Assembly: GCF_000295095.1 (NCBI RefSeq)
Contig: NZ_JH806632.1
Span: 1,336,068 to 1,383,287, forward strand
Direction of reading: 5' to 3'
Source: Actinomyces timonensis DSM 23838
Lineage (GTDB): Bacteria > Actinomycetota > Actinomycetes > Actinomycetales > Actinomycetaceae
Length of the DNA stretch: 47,220 nt
Of this stretch, positions 8,963 to 33,498 are shown one piece after another. How positions within the stretch are numbered: position 1 is the stretch's first letter; each line of letters begins with the position of its first letter. The position numbers and the translations under genes were made by a program. Under the pieces are notes generated by a model. That model ran no database searches, was not told the origin of the DNA, and saw only the letters and a program-made list of their open reading frames with translations.

Positions 8963-9094
8963 GCGCCGACGGCGACCTTCTCCACCGACGGCGACATTTT
9001 CCACCGATGGGTGCGCCTAGCACCCAGGGGTGCAGTGAGAACGCACCTCTCGGTGCTCACCGCACCCACCGGTGCTCGCGGCAACCACCGGTGA
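8963..9094. repeat. 113-bp palindromic-unit element, copy A (plus one extra unit)
   Basis: 14-bp units start at 8963, 8982, 9001, 9020, 9043, 9062 and 9081, most of the form GCACC-N4-GGTGC. Spacers are 5 bases (CTTCT, ATTTT, GCCTA, TCACC, TCGCG) except one of 9 bases (AGTGAGAAC, 9034-9042). The six units from 8982 to 9094 match the 113-bp architecture of the other three copies, in inverse orientation to copy D. The unit at 8963 is an additional degenerate one. The array is intergenic, between an XRE gene's 3' end and the start of the YjbR gene. The 19-bp period is not a multiple of three, so it is not coding. Confidence 0.85.
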
Positions 9095-9109
9095 CTGCCA
9101 GGCCATCCC

Positions 9110-9313
9110 TTAATCGACGACCTCCAGGAGCTCTCCGACGCCGCAGTCGAGGGCCTCGCAGATCGCGGCGAGGGTGGAGTACCGGATGGCCTTGGCGCGG
9201 TCGTTCTTGAGCACTGAGAGGTTGACGGTGGTCACGCCGACCCTCTCGGAGAGCTCGACGAGCGTCATGCCGCGCGCGGCCAGGAGCTCGTCGAGGTGGC
9301 AGACCACCCTCAT
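9110..9313 (-). CDS. Small XRE-type transcriptional regulator
   Basis: The 67-residue protein is a single helix-turn-helix domain (HTH_26/YozG-like), with VELSERVGVTTVNLSVLKN as the HTH and STLAAICEALDCGVGELLEVV at the end. Regulators of this size usually pair with a DUF2975 membrane protein, and that is the gene immediately upstream. The ATG at 9313 overlaps the upstream stop (ATGA). Because the partner lacks its 5' end, expression of this regulator may depend on transcription from further upstream. Targets are unknown. Confidence 0.85.
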   Translation of the reverse strand: MRVVCHLDELLAARGMTLVELSERVGVTTVNLSVLKNDRAKAIRYSTLAAICEALDCGVGELLEVVD

Positions 9314-9864
9314 ACGAGCCCCTCGGTGTCCTCGCGCAGCGAGGCGTTCTCCGCTTGGAGCTCCTTGCTGCTGTGATGGAGTCGGGTCAGGGCGGCCACG
9401 AGGTACGTCATCCCCCAGATGACGACGGCCGAGGCGAGGATCCCGATGAAGGTGATGCCCCCGACGCTCATCGGTGATGAGCCGTGCCCTTTGGGTGTCC
9501 AGGAGACGGGGATCATGTACCCGAAAGCCCATGCCGCCAATAGCGCGGCCGTGCCGAGCCGCCGCACGCGCCGCGCAGCCCTCTCGATCCGCTCCCACGG
9601 CGTGCCCCTGCCCTGCCAGTGCGGGGAGGTGGGGGCCACGAGCCGCCCGATCTCGACGGCGCAGAGGAAGACGAGCACCACGTACGCGATGATGAGAACG
9701 GCTTCCAGGGCCAGGCTCCACGTTGGCGCCCCTGTGTAGTAGGCGTAGACCTTCGCCCGATCGAGCCCGACATAGGTCAGGAGCCCGTTGTACTCACGCG
9801 GGATGGGCGTCCCCTCCCCGAGGACGTCGATGAACGCCGTCGTCCCTCGGCCTGGTGGTCGCGC
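9310..9864 (-). pseudogene. DUF2975-like membrane protein, 5'-truncated
   Basis: The open frame runs from the stop of the neighbouring gene (9865-9867) to 9310. It reads as plausible protein throughout (loop GEGTPIPREYNGLL, then membrane segments LALEAVLIIAYVVLVFL, a middle pair, and a C-terminal coiled segment ELQAENASLRED). No ATG, GTG or TTG occurs before the GTG at 9681, which lies inside a membrane helix. The expected first membrane helix of a DUF2975 protein is missing. The simplest reading is loss of the 5' end by a deletion that joined this gene to its neighbour. A start at GTG 9681 would give 123 residues. Confidence 0.65.
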
Positions 9865-10611
9865 TCAGTGAGCGGAAGCGGCGATGCTCTTCGTGAGCGC
9901 GGTCGCGTCGGCCTCCGTGGGGGCGACGATCAGCACGGTGGCCGCGCTGCCCGAGGTTGTTGGGATGAACGCAATGGATCCGTACGACACCGTGCTCGAG
10001 TAGCTCATGAAGTAGGCGACGGTCGCGGTGCCATTCGGAGTGTCGATGTTCCTGCAGGATGTGACTCCCACCGTGTTGAGGCTTTCCGTGACCATCCTGG
10101 CCATCGCTCCATTCGGCACGTAAGGGAAAGGGTCCTTGGCGATCCGCACCTGCCGGGATTCATCGGCGTCGTGAGCATAGGCGTCAAAGCCTTCCGTGTA
10201 CTCGACGATGCCCGAGGGGTCAGGGGCGCTGCCATCGCCGGTGATCCACGTGCTCGGCACGGAGACCGTGATGCCCACGCTCTGGCTTGTCAGACTGGTC
10301 ATGTCCTCCGCCTGCGTGGAGTCGTCGCCGCGCATGAGGAGGAAGGCGCCGACGCCAGCGGCGATGAGGGCGACGACGACGCCCACGACGATGCCCACGA
10401 TGAGCCCGGTGCGCTTCTTGGGCTGCCCGGGGCCCTGCTGGCTGGGAGCGCCGTTGGCACCGTCACCGTAGGCGGGATCGAAGGGAGGGAAGGGGCCCTG
10501 CGCACCCGGCTGGGTGGCGATCTGCGCCGAGGGCGTGTCGCCGGGCTGACCGCCGGTGCCGTACTCCGTTCCATCGCCCGACTGTGGACCATCAGGAAAC
10601 CGCGCTTACAT
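9865..10611 (-). pseudogene. LpqN-like surface protein with a stop at codon 2
   Basis: The frame encodes a Pro/Gly/Gln-rich N-terminus, one membrane helix (around VALIAAGVGAFLLMRG) and an outside domain (about 130 residues; VSVPSTWITG, NGTATVAYF). It parallels the 10799 gene along its whole length. ATG at 10611 is followed at once by TAA (10608-10606), and after it the codons align with the N-terminus of the paralogue (M-S-T-Y-P-P-N-G against M-stop-A-R-F-P-D-G). A single C-to-A change in a serine codon would explain this. The only other start is GTG 10398 at the membrane helix (177 aa). The domain resembles LpqN (Mog1/PsbP-like), by eye. Confidence 0.65.
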
Positions 10612-10798
10612 GCTGTGATTGCTAGATGAGCGTCGTCGTGGTGGTAAGGCGTGGGGGCGCGGTGGGACCCACTGTCTCCGGGACGACTCGCCGCAGAGCG
10701 AGAGGCGGAGAGGCGCGTGAACGACGGCGCGGGTGGACCCGCCTCCTCAGAGGCTGGCCCACCCGCAGTGGTGGGTGAGGTTGGCGCTGCGCGACCGA

Positions 10799-11746
10799 TC
10801 AGCGAAGACCGTTGGCGACTTGGGTGATGCGAGCCTTGACCTTCTCCGGGGTCAGTGCGATCACCTCGACCACGGCGACCGCGCCGGACTTGGCTGGGAC
10901 GAATAGGAGGCAGCCGAATCCCGGGATACCGGAGGCGTTCGTGTAGTAGGCCACCTTCCCCGCTCCGTTCGCCGTGGAGATGTCCTCGTAGGAGGAGAGC
11001 GTGGAAGTGCCATCCTTGGTGATGACATCGTTCACCGTGGTCTGATCCGGGAGGTTGGGAAGCGGCGTGTTCCCGATCTCGACTCGCTCGAACGCGGCCG
11101 TGTCATGCGCGTAGGCATCCATGTAGCTCGTGTCCTTGAGGAGCCCCGAGGGGTCCGGCGCGCCCGCCGTCCCGCTCACCCAGGTGCTCGGCACAGGGAC
11201 GGTGAGCCCGGTGACCGGGCCGGAGAGATCTGTCATGGTCTCTGCCGGTGATGCGCTCGGGGTCGGTGATGTGCTCGGGGTCGCCAACATCGTGGGTCGC
11301 CTGGTGCGGGTGGGCTCCTCAGTGGGCTCGGTGCGACTGGTCTTTGTGGCGGTCGCGGTGGCTTCCGCCTTGGGGTCGGAGTCATCGTCGCCGCGCATGA
11401 GGACGAAGGCGCCGACGCCGGTGGCGATGAGGGCAACAACGACGGCGCTGACGATGCCCACGATGAGCCCCGTGTTCTTCTTCGGCTGCTGGGGGCCCTG
11501 CTGGCCGGGGGAGCCGTAGCCGTAGGCGGCGTCGATGGGCTGGAAGGGGCCCTGGGCTCCCAACTGGTTCCCGGCCTGCGTCGACGGCGTGTACCCGGGT
11601 TGGTTGCCGCCGCCGTATCCCGGCTGCTGGTAGCCGGGATACGGGTAGGCCTGGGCGGGCGGCTGCGAGGATGGATCAGGGTACTGGCCAGGGTATTGAC
11701 CCGGGTACTGCCCGGGATACTGCCCATTCGGGGGGTAGGTGGACAT
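10799..11746 (-). CDS. Membrane-anchored LpqN-like surface protein
   Basis: The 315-residue protein starts with a cytoplasmic Tyr/Pro/Gly/Gln-rich tail (1-95) including a four-fold GQYP repeat. A single membrane helix follows (about 100-122, TGLIVGIVSAVVVALIATG), then a Thr/Pro-rich linker and an outside domain (about 175-315) with LTVPVPSTWVSG and NGAGKVAYYT. This domain is shared with the genes on either side and resembles the LpqN/PsbP-like fold. Function is unknown. No Shine-Dalgarno is visible, but TAAGAT ends 6 bases before ATG 11746, so the transcript may be leaderless. It is the only anchored paralogue here with an intact reading frame. Confidence 0.8.
   Translation of the reverse strand: MSTYPPNGQYPGQYPGQYPGQYPDPSSQPPAQAYPYPGYQQPGYGGGNQPGYTPSTQAGNQLGAQGPFQPIDAAYGYGSPGQQGPQQPKKNTGLIVGIVSAVVVALIATGVGAFVLMRGDDDSDPKAEATATATKTSRTEPTEEPTRTRRPTMLATPSTSPTPSASPAETMTDLSGPVTGLTVPVPSTWVSGTAGAPDPSGLLKDTSYMDAYAHDTAAFERVEIGNTPLPNLPDQTTVNDVITKDGTSTLSSYEDISTANGAGKVAYYTNASGIPGFGCLLFVPAKSGAVAVVEVIALTPEKVKARITQVANGLR
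11682..11727 (-). repeat. 12-bp tandem repeat encoding GQYP
   Basis: Four consecutive copies of a 12-bp unit within the 10799 gene encode GQYP-GQYP-GQYP-GQYP near its N-terminus. The length could vary by slippage in frame, because the unit is a multiple of three. Confidence 0.75.
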
Positions 11747-11907
11747 GCACTGATCTTAGGGGAAGCGCGGGGTGGGGCTCTCGACGACGAGTGGGGGTGG
11801 GCAAGCGGCCAGAGGGTGGCTGGAACGGCGCGCCCCGACGCGCCGAAGAGGCGCGTCGGGGCGGGTGCGGGCCCTCCGGGAGAGAAAGGCTCAGAGGATC
11901 GAGAGCG

Positions 11908-12630
11908 TCACTTGACGCTTCCGGTGACCCGGGCAACGAGCTCGTCAACGGTGGACGGGTCGGTGGCGGAGACGGTGATGCCCGCGTAGTTGCCGCCGGA
12001 GGCGGGGGCGAAGATCACAGCACCGTAGCCCGTGCCGTCCTGAATCGTCATGTCGTAGCGGATGACGGTGGCGTCACCGTTAGCAGTGCCGATCTTCTCA
12101 TACTTCGTCATGTTGTTGGCGCCGGTCGCCTTGGCGAACGTGGTCGCGGATGCCTCATCCGTAGGGACCTGGGACTCGGGGTAGGCCTGACGCGCCACGA
12201 CGATGTTGTCGGCGTAGGGGAGGGATCCGATCGACTTGGCCTCCTTGCTCGAAACGATCAGGTCGACCTGCTTCATGGTGTTCTTGAAGGTCGTCGGATC
12301 CTGGCCCATCGCCTCCGCGGCAGCGCTCAGAGCGGCCTCGTCGAGGTTGGCCGGGTCGGAGATGACCGTCCAGTCGCTGGGTGCGAGGAAGGTGATGCCG
12401 GCTGTTGGGGCTTTTGCCTCCTGGCCATCGGTCACGGTCGCGGCCATGGATGCACCGGATGACGGGGCGGCTGTCGAGGCCTCTGCGGTGGTGGCTGTCG
12501 AGGCCTCTGCGGTGGTGGCTGTCGTGGTCTCTGCGGAGCCAGAGTCCTTGGAGCTGTCGGAGGAGCAGGCTGCGAGCGGCAGCGCCAGCGCGAGCACCGC
12601 GACGGCGGCGAGGGAGCGGGTCGTCTTCAT
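11908..12630 (-). CDS. LpqN-like lipoprotein
   Basis: The 240-residue secreted lipoprotein has signal peptide MKTTRSLAAVAVLALALPL and a lipobox ending in Cys22 (LAAC). A Thr/Ala/Ser linker (about 30-60) follows, then a domain of about 170 residues with GITFLAPSDWTV and a late NGDATVIRYDMT strand. The domain is of the same type as in the two genes downstream, here anchored by lipid rather than a membrane helix. AAGGAG lies 6 bases before ATG 12630; the longer upstream frame has no such support. It diverges from clpB. The fold resembles LpqN (Mog1/PsbP-like) by eye; the ligand is unknown. Confidence 0.82.
   Translation of the reverse strand: MKTTRSLAAVAVLALALPLAACSSDSSKDSGSAETTTATTAEASTATTAEASTAAPSSGASMAATVTDGQEAKAPTAGITFLAPSDWTVISDPANLDEAALSAAAEAMGQDPTTFKNTMKQVDLIVSSKEAKSIGSLPYADNIVVARQAYPESQVPTDEASATTFAKATGANNMTKYEKIGTANGDATVIRYDMTIQDGTGYGAVIFAPASGGNYAGITVSATDPSTVDELVARVTGSVK
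12471..12540 (-). repeat. 24-bp tandem repeat in the lipoprotein linker
   Basis: About three copies (two close, one degenerate) of a 24-bp unit encode TATTAEAS in the linker between lipobox and folded domain. The unit is in frame and probably sets the distance of the domain from the membrane. Confidence 0.7.
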
Positions 12631-12756
12631 GAGAATCTCCTTGGTGTAACGACGTGTGTCCACCATAACCCCCTCCACGCAGCAGCTACTCCGACATCTT
12701 GACAAGAAGGCCTGTGGAGTTCTCCCCATCACGCAGGAGCCTCGGCGCCTACGAAA

Positions 12757-12779
12757 GTTGAGTGGAATAGACTCAACTC
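12757..12779. promoter_or_regulatory. HAIR operator (HspR site) upstream of clpB
   Basis: A perfect inverted repeat AGTTGAGT-N7-ACTCAACT (12757-12764 and 12772-12779) matches the HspR-associated inverted repeat, consensus CTTGAGT-N7-ACTCAAG, in spacing and in 6 of 7 bases per arm. It lies 93 bases before the clpB start. With hspR encoded at 1959, clpB is predicted to be repressed by HspR and induced by heat or misfolded protein. Confidence 0.9.
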
Positions 12780-12872
12780 GTCGGCGGTTGAGGTGCCTGG
12801 AGGGAGCGGCCCGCGCGCTGGGCCCTCCCGCACAGACCCGCCCACCAGGCATGACATCCCAAGGAGAACCAT

Positions 12873-15623
<2,751 letters not shown>

Positions 15624-15637
15624 GGGCGCCGCATCAT

Positions 15638-18953: not shown

Positions 18954-21194
18954 ATGGCAACCCAGGACACCCAGGCCCCTCAGGACTCCGCCGCCCCCCA
19001 GGGCGACGGCGCCCCCGACCGCCCGAGCATCGCCTTCCACTCCGCCTACGACCAGGGCTTCGCGCGCGTCGCCGCCGTCACCCTGCCCGTCGTCCCCGGC
19101 AACCCTGGCAAGAACGCCGCCGCCATCATCGACCAGGCCCGCGCGCTGGGGGAGGAGGGCGTCTGCCTCGCCGCCTTCCCCGAGCTGTGCCTGACCGGCT
19201 ACGCCATCGACGACCTCCTCCACGCCGAGGTCCTCCTCGACGAGACCCTTGCCGCCATCGAGGCCATCCGGGCCGCGAGCGAGGGATTCCTGCCGGCCGT
19301 CGTCGTCGGCGCCCCGATCCGCCTGGGCAACCGGCTGTTCAACTGCGCCGTCGTCATCGCCGGCGGGGCCGTGCGCGGCGTCGCCCCCAAGTCCTACCTG
19401 CCCACCTACCGCGAGTTCTACGAGACCCGGCACTTCGCGGCCGGCGACGCCCCCGAGTGCGCCGAGCGCCGCGCGGTCCTGAGGGGGGTGCGGGGGCCGG
19501 GCGGCACCGGTGATTCCAGCACTGCTGGCGGCACAGGAAGCGCTGGCGCAAGTGTGCCCTTCGGCCCCAATCTGCTCTTCGACGTCGCCGACGTCCCCGG
19601 CCTCACCTTCCACGTGGAGGTCTGCGAGGACATGTGGGTTCCCGTCCCGCCGTCGTCCGTGGCCGCGCTCGCGGGCGCCACGGTGCTGCTCAACATCTCC
19701 TCCTCGCCGATCACCGTCGGCCGCGCCGAGGACCGCCATCTCATGGCGCGCTCCTCATCGGCGCGGGGCCTGGCCGCCTACGTCTACGCCGCGGCCGGGC
19801 AGGGCGAGTCCAGCACCGATCTGGCCTGGGACGGCCAGACCATGATCTACGAGAACGGCGAGCTGCTCGGATCCTCCGAGCGCTTCCCCGACGGGCCGAG
19901 GGCCACCATCGCCGACGTCGACATCGAGGGGATGCGCGCCGAGCGCCTGCGCCAGGGGACCTTCGAGGACAACGCCCGCACCCTGGCGCGCGCCGCCGGG
20001 GGAGCGGCCCCAGGGCCCGCCTCCTTCACCGACCCGCGCGCCTTCGAGCGCATCGAGATCCCCGCCGTCGACCTGCGCGCCCCCCGGACGGATATCGGAC
20101 TGCGGCGGCGCGTGGACCGCTTCCCCTTCGTTCCCGACGACCCTGCCCGCCTGGCGCAGGACTGCTACGAGGCCTACAACATCCAGGTCGAGGCGCTTGT
20201 CCAGCGCCTGCGCGCCATCGGCAACCCGACAATCGTCATCGGCGTCTCCGGGGGCCTGGACTCCACCCAGGCGCTCATCGTGGCGGCGCGCGCCATGGAC
20301 CGGCTCGGCCGGCCCCGCTCGGACATCCTGGCCTACACGATGCCCGGCTTCGCCACGAGCGCCACCACCCGCCGCAATGCCGAGGACCTTGCCGTGGGCC
20401 TGGGCTGCTCCTTCTCCGAGCTCGACATCCGCCCCACCGCCACGCAGATGCTCACCGAGATGGGCCACCCCTACGGGCGCGGCGAGCGCGGCCCGGAGGT
20501 CTACGACGTCACCTTCGAGAACGTCCAGGCCGGGCTGCGCACCGACTTCCTGTTCCGCATCGCCAACGCCCGGGGCGGGATCGTGCTCGGAACGGGAGAC
20601 CTCTCCGAGCTGGCGCTGGGCTGGTGCACCTTCGGCGTGGGCGACCACATGGCCCACTACGGGGTCAACGCCGGGATCCCCAAGACCCTCATCCAGCACC
20701 TCATCCGCTGGGTGGTGGCCGAGCAGATCTTCGACGACGCCGTCGGGCGCACGCTGCTGTCCATCCTCGACACCGAGATCAGTCCCGAGCTGGTGCCCGG
20801 CAGCGAGGACGAGCCCATGCAGTCCACCCAGTCGCGGATCGGCCCCTACGCCCTGCAGGACTTCACCCTGTGGCACGTGCTGCGCCGGGGCTCGCGGCCC
20901 AGCCGCATCGCCTTCCTGGCGGAGAAGGCGTGGGCCGATGCCTCCGAGGGCGACTGGCCGCAGGGGCTGCCCGAGGCGGACCGGGTGGCCTACTCGCTGC
21001 CGGAGATCCGGCGCTGGGAGCTGCTGTTCCTCAAGCGCTTCTTCGCCAACCAGTTCAAGCGCTCGACCCTGCCCAACGGCCCGAAGGTCGTGGCCGGGGG
21101 CTCGCTGTCCCCCCGCGGGGACTGGCGCATGCCCTCCGACGTCAGCGGCGCCGCCTGGATCGCCGAGCTGGAGCGCAACGTCCCCGAGGCCTAG
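18954..21194 (+). CDS. nadE: Glutamine-dependent NAD+ synthetase
   Basis: NadE amidates nicotinate adenine dinucleotide to NAD+, using ammonia from glutamine. The N-terminal nitrilase-like glutaminase has Glu77 (AAFPELCLTG), Lys146 (APKSYLP) and Cys224 (EVCEDMW). The C-terminal synthetase has the P-loop SGGLDST at 432-438 and late motifs GTGDLSELALGWCTFGVGDH and FKRSTLPNGPKV. At 746 residues it is longer than the usual 680, owing to an acidic N-terminal extension and a Gly/Ser/Thr-rich insert near 180-205. ATG 18954 has only a weak purine-rich upstream sequence. It is followed by the dispersed-repeat hairpin at 21230. Confidence 0.97.
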   Translation: MATQDTQAPQDSAAPQGDGAPDRPSIAFHSAYDQGFARVAAVTLPVVPGNPGKNAAAIIDQARALGEEGVCLAAFPELCLTGYAIDDLLHAEVLLDETLAAIEAIRAASEGFLPAVVVGAPIRLGNRLFNCAVVIAGGAVRGVAPKSYLPTYREFYETRHFAAGDAPECAERRAVLRGVRGPGGTGDSSTAGGTGSAGASVPFGPNLLFDVADVPGLTFHVEVCEDMWVPVPPSSVAALAGATVLLNISSSPITVGRAEDRHLMARSSSARGLAAYVYAAAGQGESSTDLAWDGQTMIYENGELLGSSERFPDGPRATIADVDIEGMRAERLRQGTFEDNARTLARAAGGAAPGPASFTDPRAFERIEIPAVDLRAPRTDIGLRRRVDRFPFVPDDPARLAQDCYEAYNIQVEALVQRLRAIGNPTIVIGVSGGLDSTQALIVAARAMDRLGRPRSDILAYTMPGFATSATTRRNAEDLAVGLGCSFSELDIRPTATQMLTEMGHPYGRGERGPEVYDVTFENVQAGLRTDFLFRIANARGGIVLGTGDLSELALGWCTFGVGDHMAHYGVNAGIPKTLIQHLIRWVVAEQIFDDAVGRTLLSILDTEISPELVPGSEDEPMQSTQSRIGPYALQDFTLWHVLRRGSRPSRIAFLAEKAWADASEGDWPQGLPEADRVAYSLPEIRRWELLFLKRFFANQFKRSTLPNGPKVVAGGSLSPRGDWRMPSDVSGAAWIAELERNVPEA

Positions 21195-21229: not shown

Positions 21230-21310
21230 CCGAGACCGGGCGATCAGCACGGCGAGATTCCGATCTGTGGAAAACCGCCCGGTTTCGCGGTGCTGTTCGC
21301 CCGGTCTCGG
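21230..21310. repeat. Dispersed 3'-end motif, copy 1, with inverted partner
   Basis: 21230-21259 carries the motif with core CGAGACCGGGCGATCAGCAC and continuation GGCGAGATT. 21287-21310 is its reverse complement over 24 bases with two mismatches, so the segment can fold into a long hairpin. It begins 35 bases after the nadE stop. The same motif occurs at 39922-39952 and, inverted with four changes in 28 bases, at 43007-43034, each time just after a gene's stop and in that gene's direction. The hairpin could also terminate nadE transcription. Confidence 0.8.
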
Positions 21311-21594
21311 TGAGGGGTGGGGTCGGAAACTGAGAGGAAGGCTCGCTGTGTGACGAAGATCATAGTTAGCGATGAAGGTGATGGGCAGGGGCTGTGACCC
21401 ACGCAATATCGCCGATGTGCTGGGCGTCTCATTGCTAACGTTCTCCCACTCGCGTTACTAACGCTTGTTAACGCCTGCCTGATCGGGTGTCATCTCGTCG
21501 CATTCGCGCGGAATCGCGCCTATCGTCCGCCTCACCACACCGTTCGCCGGTGGCGGAGATCCCCGCGACCGGCCCGACTGGAAGGCGGTTATCC
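21311..21594 (+). promoter_or_regulatory. Upstream region of the PTS operon with repeated TAACG boxes
   Basis: This leader is less GC-rich than the coding sequence. It holds three direct boxes GCTAACG (21434-21440), ACTAACG (21457-21463) and GTTAACG (21467-21473), and an inverted half-box GTTAGCG at 21365-21371. The clustering before the first PTS gene suggests binding of a regulator that controls the operon. The regulator is not identified. Confidence 0.45.
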
Positions 21595-27634: not shown

Positions 27635-27668
27635 GCGGAGGGCCGCGCCGGCCACCCGCTGGAACGAC

Positions 27669-27705: not shown

Positions 27706-27810
27706 GCGCGCGGGAGCCGGGCTCGTAGCGGGCTCGGGCGGAGGCTCGAGCCCGGGCCCGGGGCTCGGCTCCGAGGCGCGGGCCCGGCTCGGGCTCGGCT
27801 CTCGTGGAGC

Positions 27811-28266
27811 TCAGTTCTTGGGGGCGCTGTGCCGGTAGACGTTCGTCTCGCGCAGCTCGAAGCCGCAGCGCTGGTAGAGGCGGTTGGCCGCCTCGCGGGA
27901 CGGGCGCGAGGTGAGGTCGACGGTGCGCGCGCCGAGCTCCTGGGCGTGGGCGACCGCCGCCTCCACGAGCTGGCGGCCGGCGCCCTGGCCGCGCGCCTCG
28001 GCGTCGACGACGACGTCCTCCACCCAGGCCCGCAGGCCCGTTGGGATCGTGAAGGTCGCCAGGGTCAGCATTCCCAGGATCGGGGCGGGGGCGGCGCCGG
28101 CGGGGGAGTCCGGGCGGAAGACGAAGAGGTAGACGCCGTCCTGTGCGAGAAGGGCCTCGCACTGCTCGGCGGTGAGCGCCGGGGCGCTGCGGGAGAGCTG
28201 GGGGATGAGGCGCTCCATCGCCTCGACGAGTTCGGGTCCTGCCTGGGTGACGATCTCGGTGGCCAT
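27811..28266 (-). CDS. GNAT-family N-acetyltransferase
   Basis: The 151-residue acetyl-CoA-dependent transferase has the acetyl-CoA-binding motif A as DVVVDAEARGQGAGRQLVEAA (R-G-Q-G-A-G), preceded by the strand ILGMLTLATFTIPTG. Motif B follows as VDLTSRPSREAANRLYQRCGFELRETNVYR. The Met at 28266 is chosen because the upstream frame is Arg/Ser-rich and AGAGAGG precedes it. The acceptor is unknown. It is convergent with the NlpC/P60 gene and divergent from the PAS gene. Confidence 0.9.
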   Translation of the reverse strand: MATEIVTQAGPELVEAMERLIPQLSRSAPALTAEQCEALLAQDGVYLFVFRPDSPAGAAPAPILGMLTLATFTIPTGLRAWVEDVVVDAEARGQGAGRQLVEAAVAHAQELGARTVDLTSRPSREAANRLYQRCGFELRETNVYRHSAPKN

Positions 28267-28451
28267 CGTGGTGCCTCTCTTGAGTGAGTGCCGCGGGGAC
28301 GCGCGCCGCGTGAGGGTCGGCGCGAATGCCCTGAGCCTAGCGGCGATGGGGAGCTGGCGAGGGCGGGCACACGGTGTCAGCATCGGGGGTAGTCTCAGGG
28401 GACCCAGCATGGGACCGTTGGGACGAGCATCTGGCCGGAGGGAGCCCCGCC

Positions 28452-29882
28452 ATGACCGAGCACACTGAGCCGACCCAGCCGACGAGTCAGAGCGAGCCGG
28501 TCGGAGCCGGCGCGCCGCCCGCTCAGGAGCGCGCTTTCGAGGCCCACGAGATCTTCTTCTCCACCACGGACGCCGCGGGCCGCATCCGCCGGGCCAACTC
28601 GATCTTCATGCGCCTGTCCGGCTACCCGCGCGGGGCGCTCGTGGGGCGGGCCCACAACGTCGTGCGCCACGCCGTCATGCCCGCCGGGCTCTTCCGCGGG
28701 GTGTGGGAGGACATCGAGGCCGGCCACGCCGCCAGCGCCTACATCACCAACCGCGCCTCCGACGGCGGGCACTACCGGGTCTTCGCCACCATCGTCCCCT
28801 CGGGCAGCGGCTACCTGTCCATCCGCACCCTCCCGCAGCTGACCGAGCAGCGCGATGCCTTCGAACGGGCCTTCGCGCGGGTTCGGGAAGTCGAGGCCGC
28901 CTCGGCCGCGGGAGGCTCCACCCGCCGGGAGGCCGCCGCCGCGGGGCAGGCCGCCCTGGCCCGCGAGCTCGAGGCGCTGGGGTATGAGTCCACCGTGGAC
29001 TTCACCCGGCAGGCCGTGGCCGCCGAGGTCGCCGCCCTCGTGGCCGCCGGGGTGGGCATCCCGAGCGCCGACGGGGCCGAGGGGCCCGTGGCCCGCGTTC
29101 TCGCGGAGATGCACGCCATCGAGGAGGCCACCAGAGGCCACCTCGCCCTGCTCGACGAGCTCGCCCGCCTCGTTCGCCTCCTCGACAGTCGCGCCACCGA
29201 GATCCAGGCGCTCGCGGCCAGGCTTGCCGAACTGCGAGTGGCCCTGCGCGCCACGAGGGACGAGGTCGCGCGCCTTGGCTCGCGGCCTGGGGCTGAGGGA
29301 GAGGGCGCCGACGGCTTCGAGGAGCGCTACCAGCGCGTCGACGCCCTCGTCCTCGAATGCGCCGAGGAGCTGCGCCCCCTGGCCGGGCAGGTCTCCGAAC
29401 TGCGCGGCGACGCCTACTCCGTGCGCTTCGCCATCGCCCTCATGCGCCTGCACAACCTCGCCTCGGGATTCTTCGCCGCCCAGATCCTGGCCGGGGACGA
29501 CGACGTCACCGAGAACGACGCCGTCGGCTCCCTCGAGGAGCTGACGAACGCCCTGAGCGAGGGCATCTCACGGCTCACCGACCACCGCGCCCTGCTGGAG
29601 GCCCGTCGCGAGCTCGTCGGCGGGGAGCTCGACGCCGTCGCCGAGGAGCTCACGGCCACGCACGGCCCCCTCACCGAGCTGCTGGCCGAGGCCGCCGCGG
29701 CGGGCGCGGGGCAGAGCAAGCCGGTGCGGCGCGCCACTGCCCTCGTCGCGGACGGCTTCCCCGAGGCGCGGGACCTGGCGGACCTGGCTGGAGCCGTTCG
29801 CGACCTGGAGATCCCGATGCTGGCCGCCGAGATCCAGGAGCGCATCACTGCCGTGCGGCGCGCCCTGGCCGAGCTGCGCTGA
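28452..29882 (+). CDS. Aer-type PAS domain protein without a signalling domain
   Basis: The 476-residue soluble protein has a PAS domain (about 30-130) with ANSIFMRLSGYPRGALVGRAHNVVRH. The HNVVRH stretch at 68-73 with MP following matches the FAD-binding PAS of the aerotaxis receptor Aer (HNIVRHPDMP). The remaining 340 residues are almost all helix, with long Ala/Leu/Glu/Arg segments that look like coiled coil. There is no membrane segment, HAMP domain or MCP hairpin motif, nor a kinase or cyclase. It may be a redox or oxygen sensor with a helical output. GGAGGGA lies 8 bases before ATG 28452. Palindromic element B starts at the base after its stop. Confidence 0.85.
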   Translation: MTEHTEPTQPTSQSEPVGAGAPPAQERAFEAHEIFFSTTDAAGRIRRANSIFMRLSGYPRGALVGRAHNVVRHAVMPAGLFRGVWEDIEAGHAASAYITNRASDGGHYRVFATIVPSGSGYLSIRTLPQLTEQRDAFERAFARVREVEAASAAGGSTRREAAAAGQAALARELEALGYESTVDFTRQAVAAEVAALVAAGVGIPSADGAEGPVARVLAEMHAIEEATRGHLALLDELARLVRLLDSRATEIQALAARLAELRVALRATRDEVARLGSRPGAEGEGADGFEERYQRVDALVLECAEELRPLAGQVSELRGDAYSVRFAIALMRLHNLASGFFAAQILAGDDDVTENDAVGSLEELTNALSEGISRLTDHRALLEARRELVGGELDAVAEELTATHGPLTELLAEAAAAGAGQSKPVRRATALVADGFPEARDLADLAGAVRDLEIPMLAAEIQERITAVRRALAELR

Positions 29883-29995
29883 GCACTGCCGGGTGCGCCT
29901 GGCACCGGTGGTTGCGGCAAACACCTTCGGGTGCGTTGCCACCGCAACCCACGGTGCTCGGCGCGACCACCGGTGCTGGAGGCACCCGCCGATGG
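29883..29995. repeat. 113-bp palindromic-unit element, copy B
   Basis: Six 14-bp units start at 29883, 29902, 29921, 29944, 29963 and 29982. Spacers are GCCTG, GGCAA, GTTGCCACC (9 bases, 29935-29943), TCGGC and TGGAG. Units 2 and 5 are reverse complements at 13 of 14 positions. It starts at the first base after the PAS gene's stop and lies between convergent genes. Same orientation as copy D. Confidence 0.9.
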
Positions 29996-30019
29996 CGCGG
30001 GGGAGGCGCCCCTCTCCGG

Positions 30020-30712
30020 CTATGCCGGCGTCGGCGCGGCGGCGGGGACCACGTGCAGGCGCCGCCAGCCCAGCGCCCCGCTGACCACGACGAGCGCCGC
30101 CGTGTAGACGGCCGCGTGCCCGAGGCCGCCCGCGAGCGCGCTGGAAGCGTCCGCCACCGGCCCGACGGCGAGGCTCGCCAGCTCACGGGCCGACCACAGA
30201 GGCAGGGCGCGCGTCCACGACTCCTGCGGGTCCACGAGGAGCTGGACCGCCATGATCCCGATGAGCAGGAGCGCCCCCTCCAAGTCCCGGGGCACGAGGG
30301 CCGCCGTGAGCGCGCCCAGCGGGGCCGCGACGGTGGCGCCAAGGAGCAGGAGCGGCACCACCGCCGTCGGCCGCTCGAGTGAGTCCCCGATCGTCGCGAT
30401 CGCCACGATCGAGTAGGCGCAGGCGAGCGCCCAGCCCATGGCGAGGACCGCCAGGAGGCGGCCCGCGAGCAGCGCCAGGGGCGGCGCCCCCGCAACGGCG
30501 AGGCGGCGGTCGATGCCGCGCGAGGAGACGTGGGTGAACAGGGCGAGGGTCGCCACCGCCCACCCCAGGCCCATCGACAGCAGCCGCAGCGCCGTCCAGT
30601 GGGTGTCCACGCGCACCGCGAAGAACGCCAGGGGGAGAAGGCAGGTGAGAGCCAGAGCGCCGCGGCGCCGAAGGAGCTCGACCACAGTGGTGCGGGCGAC
30701 GAGCAGGGTCAT
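30020..30712 (-). CDS. ABC transporter permease (ABC-2-like)
   Basis: The 230-residue membrane protein has about six hydrophobic segments (GALALTCLLPLAFFAV, LGWAVATLALFTHV and further pairs). It has the size and topology of a compact ABC-2 exporter subunit. ATG 30712 overlaps the stop of the ATPase gene (ATGA), so the two are translationally coupled. Substrate unknown. The set PadR, HAAS-ATPase and permease reads as one self-contained, PadR-controlled export unit. Confidence 0.85.
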   Translation of the reverse strand: MTLLVARTTVVELLRRRGALALTCLLPLAFFAVRVDTHWTALRLLSMGLGWAVATLALFTHVSSRGIDRRLAVAGAPPLALLAGRLLAVLAMGWALACAYSIVAIATIGDSLERPTAVVPLLLLGATVAAPLGALTAALVPRDLEGALLLIGIMAVQLLVDPQESWTRALPLWSARELASLAVGPVADASSALAGGLGHAAVYTAALVVVSGALGWRRLHVVPAAAPTPA

Positions 30713-31581
30713 GATGCCACCTCCTCGGGGCGCTCGGGGCTGGGGAGCTCGATGACGCGGTCGACGTGGTCGAGGTCGCGCAGCAGGTGGGTGACGAGGA
30801 GGACCCCCGCGCCGCTCGAGCGCCAGGCCTCCACGAGCCCCCACAGGTCCTCGTAGGCCAGCGAGTCGAAGCCCTGGTAGGGCTCATCGAGGAGGAGCAG
30901 GTCCGGGGAGTCGATCTGGGCGAGGGCGAGGTTGAGCTTCTGCTGGGTCCCGCCCGACAGTGTGCCAGCGCTCTGCCCTCCCCGCGCCCGCCATCTCAGG
31001 CCGGCCAGCAGCCCATGCCCGACGGCGACCGCGCGGCGCGGCGCCATGCCCCGGGCCGCGCCGAAGAGGCGGCAGTGCTCGTCCACGGTGAGCAGCGGGG
31101 CCAGGCCATTCAATTGGGGCGCGTAGCCGAAGCGGGGAGCGCGCTCCACCCGGCCCGCGCTCGGGCGCAGGAGCCCTGCGCAGATCTGCAGCAGGGTGGA
31201 CTTGCCCGCCCCATTGGCGCCGACGACGGCCATGACCTCCCCGCGCCGCAGTTCGAGGCTGATCCCGGTGAGGACCGGGCGGTGGGACCGCATGGCGCTC
31301 ACGCCGTCGAGCCGGAGGACCACCTCTCCGGGAGCGGAGGGCAGGGGGTCGGGGCGGGAGCCTGCGCGCAGGGCGGTGACGAGCTCGCGCGCGTAGATCG
31401 TGGCGGGGCCGAAGAGCGCCTCGGGCGGGGCGGCGGCCGCCAGGGCCTCACTGCTCGCGGAGGTCGCGGCGTCGTCGCAGGCGGGGCCGGGCAGGCCGAG
31501 GGCGGCGAGCTCGGCGCGCAGGGTGGCGCACCAGGCGGCGTGAGGATCGTGCGGCGCGGGGACCGTGCGCAGGGAGGTCAT
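30709..31581 (-). CDS. ABC transporter ATPase with N-terminal HAAS-like domain
   Basis: The 290-residue ATPase has Walker A GANGAGKST, a Q-loop in FGYAPQLNG, signature LSGGTQQKLNLALAQ (canonical LSGGQ altered to LSGGT), Walker B LLLLDEP and a switch His in LVTHLL. The first 85 residues are unusual: an alpha-helical segment (AAWCATLRAELAALGL to LFGPATIYARELVTAL) that resembles HAAS domains, which normally are separate membrane-protein modules found beside PadR genes. The start at 31581 overlaps the padR stop, so translation is coupled. Confidence 0.88.
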   Translation of the reverse strand: MTSLRTVPAPHDPHAAWCATLRAELAALGLPGPACDDAATSASSEALAAAAPPEALFGPATIYARELVTALRAGSRPDPLPSAPGEVVLRLDGVSAMRSHRPVLTGISLELRRGEVMAVVGANGAGKSTLLQICAGLLRPSAGRVERAPRFGYAPQLNGLAPLLTVDEHCRLFGAARGMAPRRAVAVGHGLLAGLRWRARGGQSAGTLSGGTQQKLNLALAQIDSPDLLLLDEPYQGFDSLAYEDLWGLVEAWRSSGAGVLLVTHLLRDLDHVDRVIELPSPERPEEVAS

Positions 31582-31967
31582 GTGGTCCTCCCGGTGCTGC
31601 GCTCGGGGGCGGTGCCCGGGGTCGCGGGGGCGAGGGGGGTGAGCGGGCGCGGGCTCATGATGCCGCCGACCGCCTGGCTGAAGGAGGCCCACTCCTCGCG
31701 GTGGGAGGCCAGGGCGCTCCGACCGGCGTCGGTGATCTCGAAGTACTTGCGCGCCGGGCCGGAGGTGGAGGGCTGCCAGGAGGCGGTGATGAGTCCCTGC
31801 TTCTCCAGGCGCAGGAGCGCGGGGTAGAGGGTTCCGCCCGGGATCGTGCCGAGGCCCGCGGCGTCGAGGCGCTGGGCGAGGGCGAGGCCATAGTCCGGGG
31901 CCGTCTCCAAGAGGGACAGGAGACAGGGGGCGAGGAAGCCGTGGAGGATCTGCGTTGACGGCGTCAT
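31578..31967 (-). CDS. PadR-family transcriptional regulator
   Basis: The 129-residue repressor has a PadR winged HTH at residues 5-90 with FLAPCLLSLLETAPDYGLALAQRL, the recognition segment GGTLYPALLRLEKQGLI and the wing PARKYFEITDAGRSAL. The C-terminal dimerisation part is short and ends in a flexible Pro/Thr tail. It is the first gene of the unit padR, HAAS-ATPase, permease. TAGCCT ends 7 bases before ATG 31967, suggesting a leaderless transcript, and an inverted repeat next to it (31978-31992) is a likely autoregulatory operator. Confidence 0.92.
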   Translation of the reverse strand: MTPSTQILHGFLAPCLLSLLETAPDYGLALAQRLDAAGLGTIPGGTLYPALLRLEKQGLITASWQPSTSGPARKYFEITDAGRSALASHREEWASFSQAVGGIMSPRPLTPLAPATPGTAPERSTGRTT

Positions 31968-31977
31968 GCTAGTCAGG

Positions 31978-31992
31978 CTACCTAGTTAGTAG
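31978..31992. promoter_or_regulatory. Candidate PadR operator
   Basis: CTACCTAGTTAGTAG has dyad symmetry (CTAC and GTAG arms, CTAG core) and lies 11 bases upstream of the padR ATG, beside the putative -10 TAGCCT. Position and symmetry fit autorepression, as is common for PadR genes. It does not match the classical TACAT-type PadR site exactly. Confidence 0.45.
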
Positions 31993-32003
31993 AAAGTCTG
32001 TCT

Positions 32004-32098
32004 AGGGATGGCCTGCGGCGATGGTGTGGGGTGATGGCCGGCGACGATAGCGGGATGCCGTGGGGTGATGGCGTGCGGCGATGGCCTGCGGCGGTGGC
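32004..32098. repeat. Degenerate GATGG-rich tandem repeats
   Basis: About 95 bases made of repeated blocks such as TGGGGTGATGGC (twice) and GCGATGGCCTGCGGCG (twice), lying between padR and palindromic element C. No open frame of note is present on either strand. It is probably slippage-prone non-coding DNA. Confidence 0.5.
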
Positions 32099-32149
32099 GT
32101 CCTCGCGCACGAGCGGCTGTGCGAGCGATGTCGGGAGCTTCCTTCTCGC

Positions 32150-32285
32150 GCGTTCCCGGGTGCGCTGAGCCCGTGCTGACAGGCGCGCTGCGCACTGATG
32201 GGTGCCTCCAGCACCGAGAGGTGCGGAGACAACGCACCTCTCGGTGCTGGGCGCACCCGTCGGTGGAGGAAGCACCTGTCGGTTT
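32150..32285. repeat. 113-bp palindromic-unit element, copy C (plus one extra unit)
   Basis: The six-unit core runs 32173-32285, with units at 32173, 32192, 32211, 32234, 32253 and 32272 and spacers GCTGC, CTCCA, GGAGACAAC (9 bases, 32225-32233), TGGGC and AGGAA. The two central units (GCACCGAGAGGTGC and GCACCTCTCGGTGC) are exact reverse complements. A further degenerate unit lies at 32150-32163 across a second 9-base spacer. The last unit overlaps the stop codon of the 32284 gene, so the array has contributed the gene's 3' end. Confidence 0.85.
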
Positions 32286-33267
32286 AGGCGCGCAGCGGCC
32301 AGGGCGCGGGCATCTGCTCCAGGCCTGCGCGGACGAGGCACTCGATCATCGCCGCGCCGTCGTGGTACCACGCGTCGTTCCAGCCCCAGCGCCGGACTAT
32401 GACGCCATACAGATCCTCCAGTTCGTTCTGCCTGTCCTTCTCATCGAGCAGTACGGCCCGTGTGTCCCTGCCGAAGGAGGCGGGGTCGTACTTGATCCGG
32501 CCGTCGTACTCGCCGACCAGGTTGATCGAGGCCCAGTAGAAGTCGACGCGGATCACCCGGCCACCGGCGTCGAGCACGTACTGCAGGACCGGCTGCGGCA
32601 AGCGGCCCTGCCACTGGCGAACCCGCGACACCGACTCGCCCGGGGACTCCGCCCTCTCGTCGGCCAGGCCGAGGGCGGTCCGCGCTACCCGCAGGCCCCG
32701 GGAGCCCGCTGGGATCCGCTCCAGCGCCTCGCGGAGCTCCTCCCACACGCACAACTCCTGGTGGAGCGCGGAGTCCATCGCGCATACGCCCGGGATGAGG
32801 CCTCCCCATCGGGCGATGTCCACGGCGGCGTCGGCAGCGCTCGCCAGGAGGAGCCCTCCGTGCTCGACGATGTCGAGGTTCCCTGCCCGGTGCCGTCGCC
32901 GCATGAGTGTTGTTCGAGAGCGTGAGGCTTGGCGTCGGAGCACCTCCACACGCTCCAAGCGCATCCCGACGACGGGGATCCCATAGGCGATGGCAGCGGA
33001 GGGACCGACAAGGACCGCCTCATCATCTGTCCGACGGACCGCCTCGATGAGAAGGCGGTGGCGCTCGGCGGGACGCATCGCCTTCCAGGCCTCAGCCTCG
33101 GCGTAGACACCACGGGCGACGCGCACCAAGCCGTCGATGCGTTCCGGGTGGAGGGGCCCGATGGCGGTGCTCGCGGACTCGTGGGCGATGACGATGACGG
33201 GGAGCGGGGGCGGCGGCGGGACGGCCGGTGTGGTCTGGGAAGCGGCGCGCTGGGCTGAGATGTGCAT
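32284..33267 (-). CDS. AbiEi-like / DUF559-type nuclease-fold protein
   Basis: The 327-residue protein follows a common actinobacterial two-part layout. The N-terminal half has GLVRVARGVYAEAEAW and VGPSAAIAYGIPVV, like the antitoxin domain of type IV AbiEi proteins. The C-terminal half has a Vsr/DUF559 PD-(D/E)xK fold: Glu in GESVSRV, Asp in RVDFYWASI, and LVGEYDGRIKY with Glu and Lys. It looks cytoplasmic. No AbiEii nucleotidyltransferase toxin is adjacent. The Met at 33267 has no clear Shine-Dalgarno, and the longer frame runs into repeat D. It is bracketed by palindromic elements C and D. It may act in phage defence or be a domesticated repair nuclease. Confidence 0.7.
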   Translation of the reverse strand: MHISAQRAASQTTPAVPPPPPLPVIVIAHESASTAIGPLHPERIDGLVRVARGVYAEAEAWKAMRPAERHRLLIEAVRRTDDEAVLVGPSAAIAYGIPVVGMRLERVEVLRRQASRSRTTLMRRRHRAGNLDIVEHGGLLLASAADAAVDIARWGGLIPGVCAMDSALHQELCVWEELREALERIPAGSRGLRVARTALGLADERAESPGESVSRVRQWQGRLPQPVLQYVLDAGGRVIRVDFYWASINLVGEYDGRIKYDPASFGRDTRAVLLDEKDRQNELEDLYGVIVRRWGWNDAWYHDGAAMIECLVRAGLEQMPAPWPLRA

Positions 33268-33385
33268 GAGATCCAGATTGCGGCGCGTTTGTCGGCATTG
33301 CCGCGCCTCTCCACAGCGCGCGGAGTGCGGCGTGCGTGAGGAGGCCTGTGGATCCCGGCGCGTCCTGGGCGCGGGGGCTCCGCGC

Positions 33386-33498
33386 GTATCGCCGGGTGCG
33401 TCTAGCACTGGTGGGTGCGGCAAGCACCGAGAGGTGCGTTGTCGCCGCACCCGTGGGTGCTGGGCGCACCTGTCGGTGGAGGAAGCACCTCTCGGCGA
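33386..33498. repeat. 113-bp palindromic-unit element, copy D
   Basis: Six 14-bp units start at 33386, 33405, 33424, 33447, 33466 and 33485. Spacers are GTCTA, GGCAA, GTTGTCGCC (9 bases, 33438-33446), TGGGC and AGGAA. The last two spacers equal those of copy C, and the second spacer equals that of copy B. It lies between the start of the 32284 gene and the end of rlmC. Its reverse complement aligns with copy A unit by unit. Confidence 0.9.

Follow-up and report, generated by a model that had tools for sequence, protein, structure and literature searches.

The 47,220-bp stretch of the Actinomyces timonensis DSM 23838 genome analysed here (the window) contains four members of a dispersed family of palindromic arrays. 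Most members follow a single gene's stop codon or occupy a gap in which two genes converge, and both orientations occur. The reading that we favour, at a shade below even probability, is a REP/BIME-like extragenic family of a small Actinomyces clade, whose core hairpin would act at transcript ends. The original prediction gave neither the polarity of the array centre nor the location at gene 3' ends, and it lacked both the copies at syntenic sites of other species and those borne by MITE-like repeats.

Four arrays in the window

The arrays, their 37-bp cores (the centre with units 3 and 4 on its two sides) and one copy of a second family are as follows, with unit scores counted against GCACC-N4-GGTGC (maximum 10).

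8982..9094, minus strand: array A, six units (6, 9, 10, 10, 10, 8; sum 53/60); centre at 9034-9042, GTTCTCACT on the minus strand; in a tandem gap, 15 bp past the stop codon that ends the HTH gene 9110-9313(-)
9020..9056, minus strand: core of A, the part that covaries across copies
21230..21311, plus strand: second-family copy whose inverted arms are of the GAGACCGGGCGATCAGCACGGC type, 36 bp downstream of the stop codon of gene 18954-21194(+)
29883..29995, plus strand: array B, six units (9, 9, 9, 9, 8, 8; sum 52/60); centre at 29935-29943, GTTGCCACC; convergent gap, beginning right after the TGA of gene 28452-29882(+) and leaving 24 bp to the stop end of gene 30020-30712(-)
29921..29957, plus strand: core of B
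32173..32285, minus strand: array C, six units (6, 9, 10, 10, 9, 8; sum 52/60); centre at 32225-32233, GTTGTCTCC on the minus strand; touches the stop codon of gene 32284-33267(-)
32211..32247, minus strand: core of C, predicted to fold into a 15-bp stem with a 7-base loop
33386..33498, plus strand: array D, six units (8, 9, 10, 10, 9, 8; sum 54/60); centre at 33438-33446, GTTGTCGCC; 37 bp downstream of the stop codon of gene 33536-34756(-)
33424..33460, plus strand: core of D

These are the four copies of the original prediction, and all have its order 14-5-14-5-14-9-14-5-14-5-14 and its unit consensus, with six-unit sums of 52-54 of 60 and a weak first unit (6/10) in both A and C. The next places in the window score 44, and the maximum in 100 dinucleotide shuffles of the window was 37; adjacent unit pairs at 19-bp pitch with at most 3 mismatches occur at 13 places, compared with 0.02 expected. 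The internal symmetries that had been described were also found: by eye, C has two central units that are each other's exact reverse complement, in B units 2 and 5 pair at 13 of 14 positions, and the spacers are shared among copies in the way stated; in an alignment, A matches the reverse complement of D over 87 nt at 84%. The copy at 21230..21311 is a companion and not a member of the GCACC family.

A family with rigid pitch and variable unit number

The genome search that the original prediction had called for recovered a fixed-pitch family with 31 copies in the host genome (G000), a figure with which a second count agrees. The proposed fixed architecture did not hold, because the number of units varies and six units in 113 bp is one size among several. 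Counting a unit when at least 7/10 consensus positions match, the 31 copies have four units (one copy), five (nine), six (six), seven (twelve) or eight (three), which sums to 193 single units. By the same rule genome G033 has up to 20 units in one run; a separate scan read runs there as 34 and 80 units. Neither the 14+5 pitch nor the 9-base centre is flexible. Towards the neighbouring unit, the 5-base spacer is kept in 31/31 G000 copies on the left and 30/31 on the right.

Each element is a polar inverted array in which the right-hand units are reverse complements of the left-hand ones. In the core, a polar 9-bp centre (GTTCTCACC in the host species, GTCCTGCCC in the other three) stands between two 14-bp units that are for the most part reverse complements, and further unit copies follow on either side at strict 19-bp pitch. 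The half-sites GCACC/GGTGC are conserved and the middle bases are freer. Because outer units resemble their same-side neighbours (pairs 1-2, 4-5, 5-6 and 4-6, z 4.3-5.0), they appear to have grown by tandem duplication.

The family is present in 4 of 49 genomes of the genus, the host genome included, with many arrays in G004, G033 and G036 and species-specific sequence types. A fifth genome (G045) has one transferred copy, within a 1.9-kb segment 97% identical to G000. An exact-core scan of named genomes returned 37 stretches (17 in A. denticolens, 5 in A. gaoshouyii and 15 single matches in unrelated organisms, the last at about chance level by rough arithmetic), and a search of a phage collection with copy D gave no match.

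Arrays lie at gene ends

Across four genomes, 87 array clusters comprise 32 in convergent gaps, 44 in tandem gaps, 10 in divergent gaps and 1 inside a called gene, compared with 40, 148 and 84 among 272 control gaps of at least 120 bp (gene calls are from our own codon-usage caller). The convergent excess (Fisher's test, P = 2e-5) and divergent deficit (P = 2.4e-4) come from counts that are not fully independent, because syntenic arrays of two species were counted separately. The median distance from an array is 33 bp to a stop codon and 182.5 bp to a start. Orientation shows no bias: in 27 tandem gaps with the array less than 100 bp from the stop, 14 have the same orientation as the genes and 13 the opposite. 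The arrays thus share the REP-type trait of being extragenic, mainly 3' of genes and in inverted arrangement. A 3' location could also be where insertions do least harm, which is a point counter to a role at transcript ends.

Signs of pairing in the core

On the strands that were folded, arrays A-D have predicted energies of -62.6 to -76.9 kcal/mol, with z-scores of -5.1 to -9.6 (0/200 shuffles each); A, B and C form one long stem and D a shifted fold. To measure covariation we used an alignment (A1) of 72 of 76 non-redundant copies, omitting two at L191 near 9000, one at L205 and one at L211; the 76 were obtained from 111 scored cores by keeping one per G033 cluster and dropping copies more than 85% identical. 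A first covariation test had used 23 of 29 G000 copies.

In pairing between the left and right arms, changes affecting both sides number 155, compared with 98.8 +/- 7.4 in shuffles (0/500). Only the innermost unit pair covaries clearly: in units 3:4, 345/456 inner positions are paired, compared with 316.4 +/- 7.8 in within-species shuffles (1/4000 reaches it), and a second within-species shuffle test gave 2/5000. Over all species, neither the outer units nor the spacers withstand within-species shuffling, so that a fully selected 113-bp hairpin is rejected; in G000 alone units 2:5 reach z 2.2. Spacer pairing, at 0/500 in plain shuffles, was discounted because the signal vanished under within-species shuffles (1996/5000). 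Mini-hairpins of single units are likewise rejected, their covariation being no higher than in shuffles (74/500). The suggestion of selection on structure thus stands for the core, where there are signs of selection for pairing, and falls for the separate 14-mers as folding units.

The control pairs are not clean. In G000 alone the non-partners 3:6 and 2:4 reach z 2.89 and 2.75, compared with 2.80 for 3:4, and over all species they reach 2.13 and 1.82, compared with 3.65. In G033 alone units 3:4 have z 0.13. Ranked by mutual information, the highest mirror pairs take places 9 and 10 of 5995.

Strong predicted folds after stop codons also occur where there are no arrays. Among G033 convergent gaps that lack both array families, 25/50 reach a fold z below -3 within 120 nt downstream of the stop, compared with 2/127 before starts in divergent gaps, a point in favour of a hairpin role at transcript ends; against it, the four scored convergent gaps with an array fold no better than array-free ones (median z -2.47 vs -2.88). 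A canonical intrinsic terminator (GC-rich hairpin plus U-tract) was not found, the interval 28300-35000 holding no U-tailed terminator with 0.5 expected by chance. Since U-tailed hairpins in G033 are no commoner after stops (6/100) than before starts (12/127), canonical intrinsic termination is not supported. Nor do the arrays belong to a known RNA family in Rfam 15, where at gathering score the only match was msiK, elsewhere in the window.

Turnover of sites and possible mobility

Sites A-D are all occupied in A. denticolens, by arrays of the A. denticolens sequence type. The syntenic arrays have the same orientation at A and C, and two of the four are flipped: site B, with the centre flipped in both A. 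denticolens and G033 (there at a B/C junction), and site D, where both A. denticolens, with two overlapping centres, and G033 have flipped arrays. For these site assignments we used only anchors with strong flanking matches (hundreds to thousands of bits) and set aside many weak chance anchors. A clear G033 array lies at 3 of 15 fully syntenic G000 array sites, compared with 1 of 42 control gaps. The other 12 of these 15 sites have no clear array in G033, which rejects universal positional conservation; two further G000 sites have weak array matches there. Inspection by eye of B, C, D and four more solo sites revealed no clean insertion with a target duplication.

Most array copies lie outside any MITE-like repeat, and seven G000 copies lie within MITE-like repeats of ~0.8-1.0 kb with terminal inverted repeats, ~70-100 bp from the left terminus where that terminus is present (the repeat at L040 lacks its left end). 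Flanking 8-bp duplications were seen by eye at the three of the seven that were inspected (L039, 8/8; L030, 7/8; L042, 7/8). The MITE-like terminus was found in none of four other genomes tested, G004, G033 and G036 among them (at most 3 mismatches), and five MITE-borne copies are absent at the syntenic G033 site, where the gaps measure -14 to 127 bp, compared with 575 to 2119 bp in G000. Terminal inverted repeats with a target-site duplication were not seen around solo arrays.

Two candidate movers were rejected. As mover of the MITE-like repeat, G000 has an ISL3-type gene (a 403-aa open frame), but the terminal repeat of that ISL3 element, beginning GGCTCTTCG, differs from GGCTTATAGGACG of the MITE-like repeat. 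The report that the window lacks a RAYT-type transposase extends to the whole host genome, in which PF01797 has no match. The same Y1_Tnp domain was found in 0/20 genomes, including all four carriers with the host among them, and in 5/14 control genomes, so that RAYT-driven spread is also rejected.

The second gene-end family has a similar design with another sequence (GAGACCGG) and a 22-bp pitch, beside GCACC-N4-GGTGC at 19 bp, and a third design was noted by eye, CCGTCTCRGCCCG at about 19-20 bp. It is conceivable, if on balance unlikely, that gene ends in this clade carry exchangeable inverted tandem arrays: several unrelated families of one design (inverted arms, rigid pitch) would replace one another at the same 3' ends, position and hairpin would be selected and sequence would not, and each species would homogenise its own dialect.

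Alternative explanations

Under the reading that we favour, a transcript made from either side would form a strong hairpin by pairing of its left and right arms. This hairpin would halt or stall RNA polymerase with no need of a U-tract, or shield the new 3' end from exonucleases. Being near-symmetric, one array could serve both neighbouring genes. Copies would spread by MITE-like carriage and some other route; because arrays would be homogenised or replaced within a species, a site could keep an array while its sequence turns over. It counts against this reading that, with only 31 copies per genome, most genes do without one. The main competitor, which we think rather more probably wrong than right, is that the arrays are selfish REPIN-like or MITE-like repeats without a cell function, spread by some transposase and found at gene ends because insertions elsewhere have been removed. 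Species-specific sequence types and bursts such as the long G033 runs fit this reading, as do the copies in MITE-like repeats whose terminus is known only from G000, the five missing from syntenic G033 sites, the G045 copy in its shared segment and the G000 covariation controls that are partly as high as the partner pair. Against it, when all species are taken together no non-partner pair covaries as strongly as units 3:4, A. denticolens has an array at each of the four window sites and G033 has weak matches at two further sites, the carriers have no Y1_Tnp gene, and the solo sites inspected lack clean insertions.

Another possibility is that a dimeric protein, a nucleoid protein or repressor, uses each 14-bp dyad as its operator, with the 19-bp pitch seating dimers side by side. 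Conserved half-sites, a freer middle and a fixed pitch would suit such an array, but a single dyad site has no need of middle bases that, as here, are polar and covary from unit 3 to unit 4, and the second family, of similar design, has a different pitch and sequence. Regulators often act between divergent genes, and few arrays lie there (10/86); we regard this explanation as improbable. The arrays might also be an internal satellite of the MITE-like element and mark the remains of its insertions, as the seven copies inside it, ~70-100 bp from its left terminus where that is present, would suggest, but the terminal repeat was not found in G004, G033 or G036, all of them array-rich, and we disfavour this origin as very improbable.

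Relationship to known repeats

In the parts of two surveys drawn on here (PMC3733652, PMC2817692), REP/BIME repeats and REPINs are short palindromic extragenic units, often in inverted pairs or clusters and with species-specific sequence, located between unidirectional and convergent genes and downstream of coding regions. The Actinomyces arrays resemble them in palindromic units, inversion, gene-end placement and species-specific sequence. They differ in that no Y1_Tnp (RAYT) gene was found in carriers, the consensus of the 72 copies has no GTAG at the unit border, and the unit is a 5-bp stem with a 4-base middle at strict 19-bp pitch. REPs are given as usually exceeding 100 copies per genome in the relevant part of PMC2817692; G000 has 31 arrays, or 193 single units. 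Because REPtrons can be lost by deletion, according to a passage in PMC3733652, the absence of RAYT only lowers the case for REP membership. The word start "Actino" does not occur in the main texts of these surveys.

CGTC-tagged REPs (dRS3, RPE-4/6) are similar in having inverted dimers and no dedicated transposase, and in the other three species the core sequence, GGTGCGTCCTGCCC, places CGTC at the border of unit 3. However, as described in the section on these families in PMC3733652, their stems are 8-9 bp long and open with two complementary A/T positions, their loops have 4-5 bases and their tails are CCA-like. The arrays instead have a GCACC/GGTGC stem, with CGTC on one side of the centre only and mostly CGTT in the host genome, so they lack the stem length, the initial A/T and the terminal CGTC of that class. 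BrickBuilt of Porphyromonas gingivalis, in the part of PMC4596501 that describes it, is a ~20-bp tandem repeat in an intergenic MITE-like element with 19 copies in ATCC 33277, built of 23-nt direct repeats without spacers. In contrast, the palindromic units of the Actinomyces arrays are separated by spacers and inverted about a centre, and the majority of copies lie outside the MITE-like repeat.

The family looks like a new, RAYT-less relative of REP/BIME repeats, which the cited parts of the surveys tie to RAYT transposases or the CGTC tag (PMC3733652, PMC2817692). It combines the lack of a detectable RAYT with rigid geometry, signs of selection for pairing in the core, and occupation of the same gene ends in relatives despite replacement of the sequence. 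It thereby offers a natural way to ask whether bacterial intergenic hairpin repeats persist because of an action at transcript ends or are only tolerated there.

Geometry of the arrays

The arrays are real, occur as a family, and are rigid in design. Each consists of 14-bp palindromic units (GCACC-N4-GGTGC) on both sides of a core, units 3 and 4 around a 9-bp centre (37 bp). The original prediction placed four copies in the window with the spacing 14-5-14-5-14-9-14-5-14-5-14, and both coordinates and spacing proved exact.

Arrays in the window: coordinates, strand, six-unit geometry score (maximum 60), predicted RNA fold of one strand with its z, and position relative to the stop codon
A, 8982-9094 (-): score 53; -72.0 kcal/mol, z -6.8; 15 bp behind the stop
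B, 29883-29995 (+): score 52; -71.8 kcal/mol, z -5.1; begins at the base after TGA
C, 32173-32285 (-): score 52; -76.9 kcal/mol, z -9.6; touches the stop
D, 33386-33498 (+): score 54; -62.6 kcal/mol, z -6.5; 37 bp behind the stop

No other place in the window scores above 44, and 100 dinucleotide-preserving shuffles reach 37 at most; adjacent unit pairs at 19-bp pitch number 13 against 0.02 expected. Unit 1 is weak in A and in C (6 of 10 conserved positions).

The fixed 113-bp length that had been proposed does not hold: arrays have 4-8 units in A. timonensis, 3-9 in A. denticolens DSM 20671, 3-6 in A. gaoshouyii pika_113 and 3-20 in G033 (a fourth Actinomyces carrier), and exactly six in only 6 of 31 A. 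timonensis copies. The best neighbouring unit lies 5 bp away, on the left and right respectively, in 31/31 and 30/31 copies in A. timonensis, 25/27 and 26/27 in A. denticolens, 10/10 and 10/10 in A. gaoshouyii, and 42/43 and 43/43 in G033. Since unit number varies and spacing is rigid, the constants are the pitch and the centre, not the length. The centre is GTTCTCACC in A. timonensis and GTCCTGCCC in the other three carriers and, when copies are oriented by it, the consensus left units are reverse complements of the right units. Consecutive G033 arrays fuse into runs, which a looser parse resolves into 34 and 80 units. The 80-unit run of the 19-bp repeat, from position 698 on in region L096 (G033:C1:2108200-2111200), has a GTCCTGCCC centre every few units and lies inside a 1.76-kb gap; it is possibly a hypervariable locus.

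Distribution in Actinomyces

A genome-wide search of the kind the original prediction called for found the two-unit core at 32 places in the 2.93-Mb A. timonensis genome (up to 3 mismatches), compared with 1 for a reversed control pattern; 31 copies are left in fetched regions once a recognisable centre or neighbouring units are required. We built a covariance model of units 2-5 from 72 sequences and scanned 49 genus genomes under strict filters, with 99 candidates scored per genome and the larger counts being lower bounds. Counting both strands, it has 62 matches in A. timonensis (in agreement with 31 copies), at least 70 in A. denticolens, at least 96 in G033, 38 in A. gaoshouyii, 2 in a fifth genome (G045), and none in the remaining 44. 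A pattern search of 79 genomes likewise found many copies in the first four only, and a single match in each of seven others. The only array found in G045 (L231) sits in a 1.9-kb segment that is 97.4% identical to an A. timonensis region (L190), and we read it as a putative recent transfer between Actinomyces genomes.

Synteny, turnover and MITE-like carriers

The gaps that hold A, B, C and D are all occupied by arrays in A. denticolens too, with flanks about 76-86% identical (64% for the weaker right flank of A); orientation agrees at A and C, and the arrays at B and D are flipped. G033 has a flipped array at D and another where the flanks of B and C join, with the intervening stretch absent; recombination between arrays could be the cause. 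The interval missing from G033 (window 30000-32200, 2.2 kb; G033 region L221) holds ABC transporter and PadR-type genes.

Judged by sequence identity, the arrays are species-typed. Syntenic arrays average 0.644, against 0.633 for non-syntenic copies of other species and 0.740 among A. timonensis paralogs (12 syntenic comparisons at six sites, some of which were compared with more than one species, two or three, or with both of two overlapping centres; computed on units 2-5 in whichever orientation matched better). The exception is the L158 site in G033, at 0.75.

When the 31 A. timonensis arrays were compared with G033 (1.6 Mb fetched, plus further stretches), both flanks were syntenic for 15, one for 10 and none for 6. 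Three of the 15 fully syntenic sites have a clear G033 array (L157, L158 and D) and 12 do not; five of these 12 are copies carried inside a MITE-like repeat (L154, L163, L164, L165 and L187). Four other arrays are absent at their G033 sites (L153, L166, L185 and L188), at L156 the G033 array is outside the syntenic gap, and weak covariance-model matches occur in the G033 gaps at L159 (24.5 bits, E 0.06, gap 330 bp) and L148 (18.8 bits, E 0.7, gap 183 bp), with E computed over all 160 kb searched. For array-free A. timonensis gaps, used as a control, 41 of 42 syntenic G033 gaps had no array. By eye, G033 has a different inverted repeat array (units of about 19-20 bp) at the L185 site and a different hairpin at the L166 site.

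The MITE-like repeat, a non-coding element of about 0.8-1.0 kb, contains seven of the A. timonensis copies together with other short tandem and inverted repeats. Its terminal inverted repeats are GGCTTATAGGACGTTT...TGTTGGTTC (28-nt arms, 86% complementary in the L042 copy); L040, one of the seven carriers, has no left end. There are 16 such termini in A. timonensis, and a search of A. denticolens, G033, A. gaoshouyii and G045 found none. Flanking 8-bp duplications were seen by eye at three insertions (8/8, 7/8 and 7/8). The repeat could be assigned to no transposase. Separately from the repeat, matches to ISL3-type transposases lie near an array in each of two genomes, at about 1.7 kb in A. 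timonensis (C1:717105-717842, L155) and 0.4 kb in G033 (C1:670809-670988, L209).

Folding and covariation

The predicted fold is one long interrupted stem in A, B and C and is shifted in D; for each array, none of 200 shuffles was as good. In the 72-copy alignment, pairing the left arm with the right gave 155 cells changed on both sides, compared with 98.8 ± 7.4 in shuffled data (0/500), and pairing inside each 14-mer gave 10 compared with 6.9 (74/500). Because copies fall into species types, the test was redone with within-species shuffling on 76 non-redundant copies. Signal was retained for units 3:4, both at inner positions (345/456 against 316.4 ± 7.8, z 3.65, 1/4000) and at all positions (899/1064 against 874.1, 2/5000; z by species 2.3 in A. 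timonensis, 2.1 in A. denticolens, 1.3 in A. gaoshouyii and 0.1 in G033), and was gone for units 2:5, units 1:6 and the spacers. Two mirror pairs rank 9th and 10th of 5995 by mutual information.

Same-side neighbours are alike beyond chance for units 1-2, 4-5, 5-6 and 4-6 (z 4.3 to 5.0) and not for 2-3 and 1-3, a likeness such as tandem duplication would give. On our reading, selection for pairing probably acts on the 37-bp core hairpin, and the outer units were probably added by duplication.

Position at gene ends

Gene calls came from a codon-usage model that had these sequences as its training set, in regions picked for holding arrays (those with up to 2 mismatches in A. denticolens, G033 and A. 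gaoshouyii). The 87 array clusters comprise 32 in convergent gaps, 44 in tandem gaps, 10 in divergent gaps and 1 inside a called gene; the remaining gaps of 120 bp or more in these regions number 40, 148 and 84 of the three kinds. With syntenic arrays of different species counted separately, this is a convergent excess (odds ratio 3.4, P = 2 x 10−5) and a divergent deficit (odds ratio 0.29, P = 2.4 x 10−4). The median distance is 33 bp to a stop codon and 182.5 bp to a start codon, and of the 44 tandem arrays 32 are closer to the stop than to the start. Among the 27 tandem gaps with an array less than 100 bp from the stop, the centre points along the direction of transcription in 14 and opposes it in 13; relative to the nearer gene in convergent gaps, 13 run with and 17 against.

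A second array family and other hairpins

The commonest intergenic 12-mers in G033 gaps are part of another unit, GAGACCGGTCGA, which defines a family similar in design and has a pitch of 22 bp in 111 of 115 spacings. It occurs at least twice in 15/81 convergent, 26/320 tandem and 7/156 divergent gaps; its arms face each other in 18 of these 48 gaps, run in one direction in 30, and have any other order in none. In a smaller A. timonensis sample (11 gaps) spacings were 44 (four), 22 (three) and 59 (one). A two-unit pattern turns up in 15 of the 49 genus genomes. Most of its places are in the four carriers, with 81 to 162 in each and no more than 20 in any other genome, and the family has species dialects across these four.

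Other features of the window
10322-10485 and 11385-11548: a 164-nt stretch repeated directly, 1063 bp on, at 81% identity
21230-21311: second-family copy following the stop codon of gene 18954-21194; its arms are of the GAGACCGGGCGATCAGCACGGC type
42957-43004: intergenic hairpin CCAGGACATCCGAGACACGATCGATGCCTCAGATGTCCTG
45719-45778 (-): msiK RNA (Rfam RF01747), adjoining gene 44590-45717 (-)

Hairpins like CCAGGACATCCGAGACACGATCGATGCCTCAGATGTCCTG adjoin array copies in L159 and L231. The 164-nt repeat overlaps two neighbouring minus-strand ORFs, perhaps paralogous genes.

Relation to known repeats and possible role

The arrays are a REP/BIME-like variant without a detectable RAYT gene. RAYT transposases carry a Y1_Tnp domain, and the Pfam family searched for was Y1_Tnp, which we take to be their marker. 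Unlike GTAG-type REPs and BIMEs, the arrays have no GTAG tag, and no Y1_Tnp gene was detected in the carriers. REPs, as the literature presents them, are palindromes outside genes that form inverted pairs and clusters; they lie between unidirectional or convergent genes and beyond the ends of coding regions, and some have GTAG tags and RAYTs, others CGTC tags without a transposase (PMC3733652, PMC2817692). The Actinomyces arrays resemble these in position and arrangement and differ in their stem from the CGTC-tagged type as depicted there (PMC3733652). The nearest case found of a short tandem repeat in a MITE is BrickBuilt of P. gingivalis (PMC4596501). Among the open-licence papers searched, no title or abstract opening reports such a family from Actinomyces. 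The genus also goes unmentioned in the main text of a 40-genome survey (PMC2267715).

Two readings of the arrays have to be weighed: that the core hairpin acts at transcript ends, and that the arrays spread selfishly. Over all species the non-partner control pairs are raised too (3:6, z 2.13; 2:4, z 1.82), and in A. timonensis alone they match the partner pair (3:6, z 2.89; 2:4, z 2.75; 3:4, z 2.80), which weakens the first reading and strengthens the second. In A. denticolens, G033 and A. gaoshouyii together, 3:4 (z 2.43) stands out against 0.76 for 3:6 and 0.41 for 2:4. Selfish spread, the main rival, is a serious possibility that we place well below even and far from remote; the inference with most support is that the arrays act at transcript ends, and we hold it tentatively at just short of an even chance.

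In G033 convergent gaps of 100-600 bp with neither family, the first 120 nt behind the stop have a median fold z of -2.88 (25/50 below -3). For divergent gaps, the 120 nt upstream of starts give a median of -0.08 (2/127 below -3). U-tailed hairpins in G033 are rare and not enriched (6/100 gap ends behind stops compared with 12/127 before starts), and window 28300-35000 has none (0.5 expected by chance). Given the fold bias behind stops and the rarity of U-tails, G033 gene ends usually have hairpins that lack a U-tract, and arrays would be one source of them. The four array-bearing convergent gaps in the same G033 test fold no better than the others.
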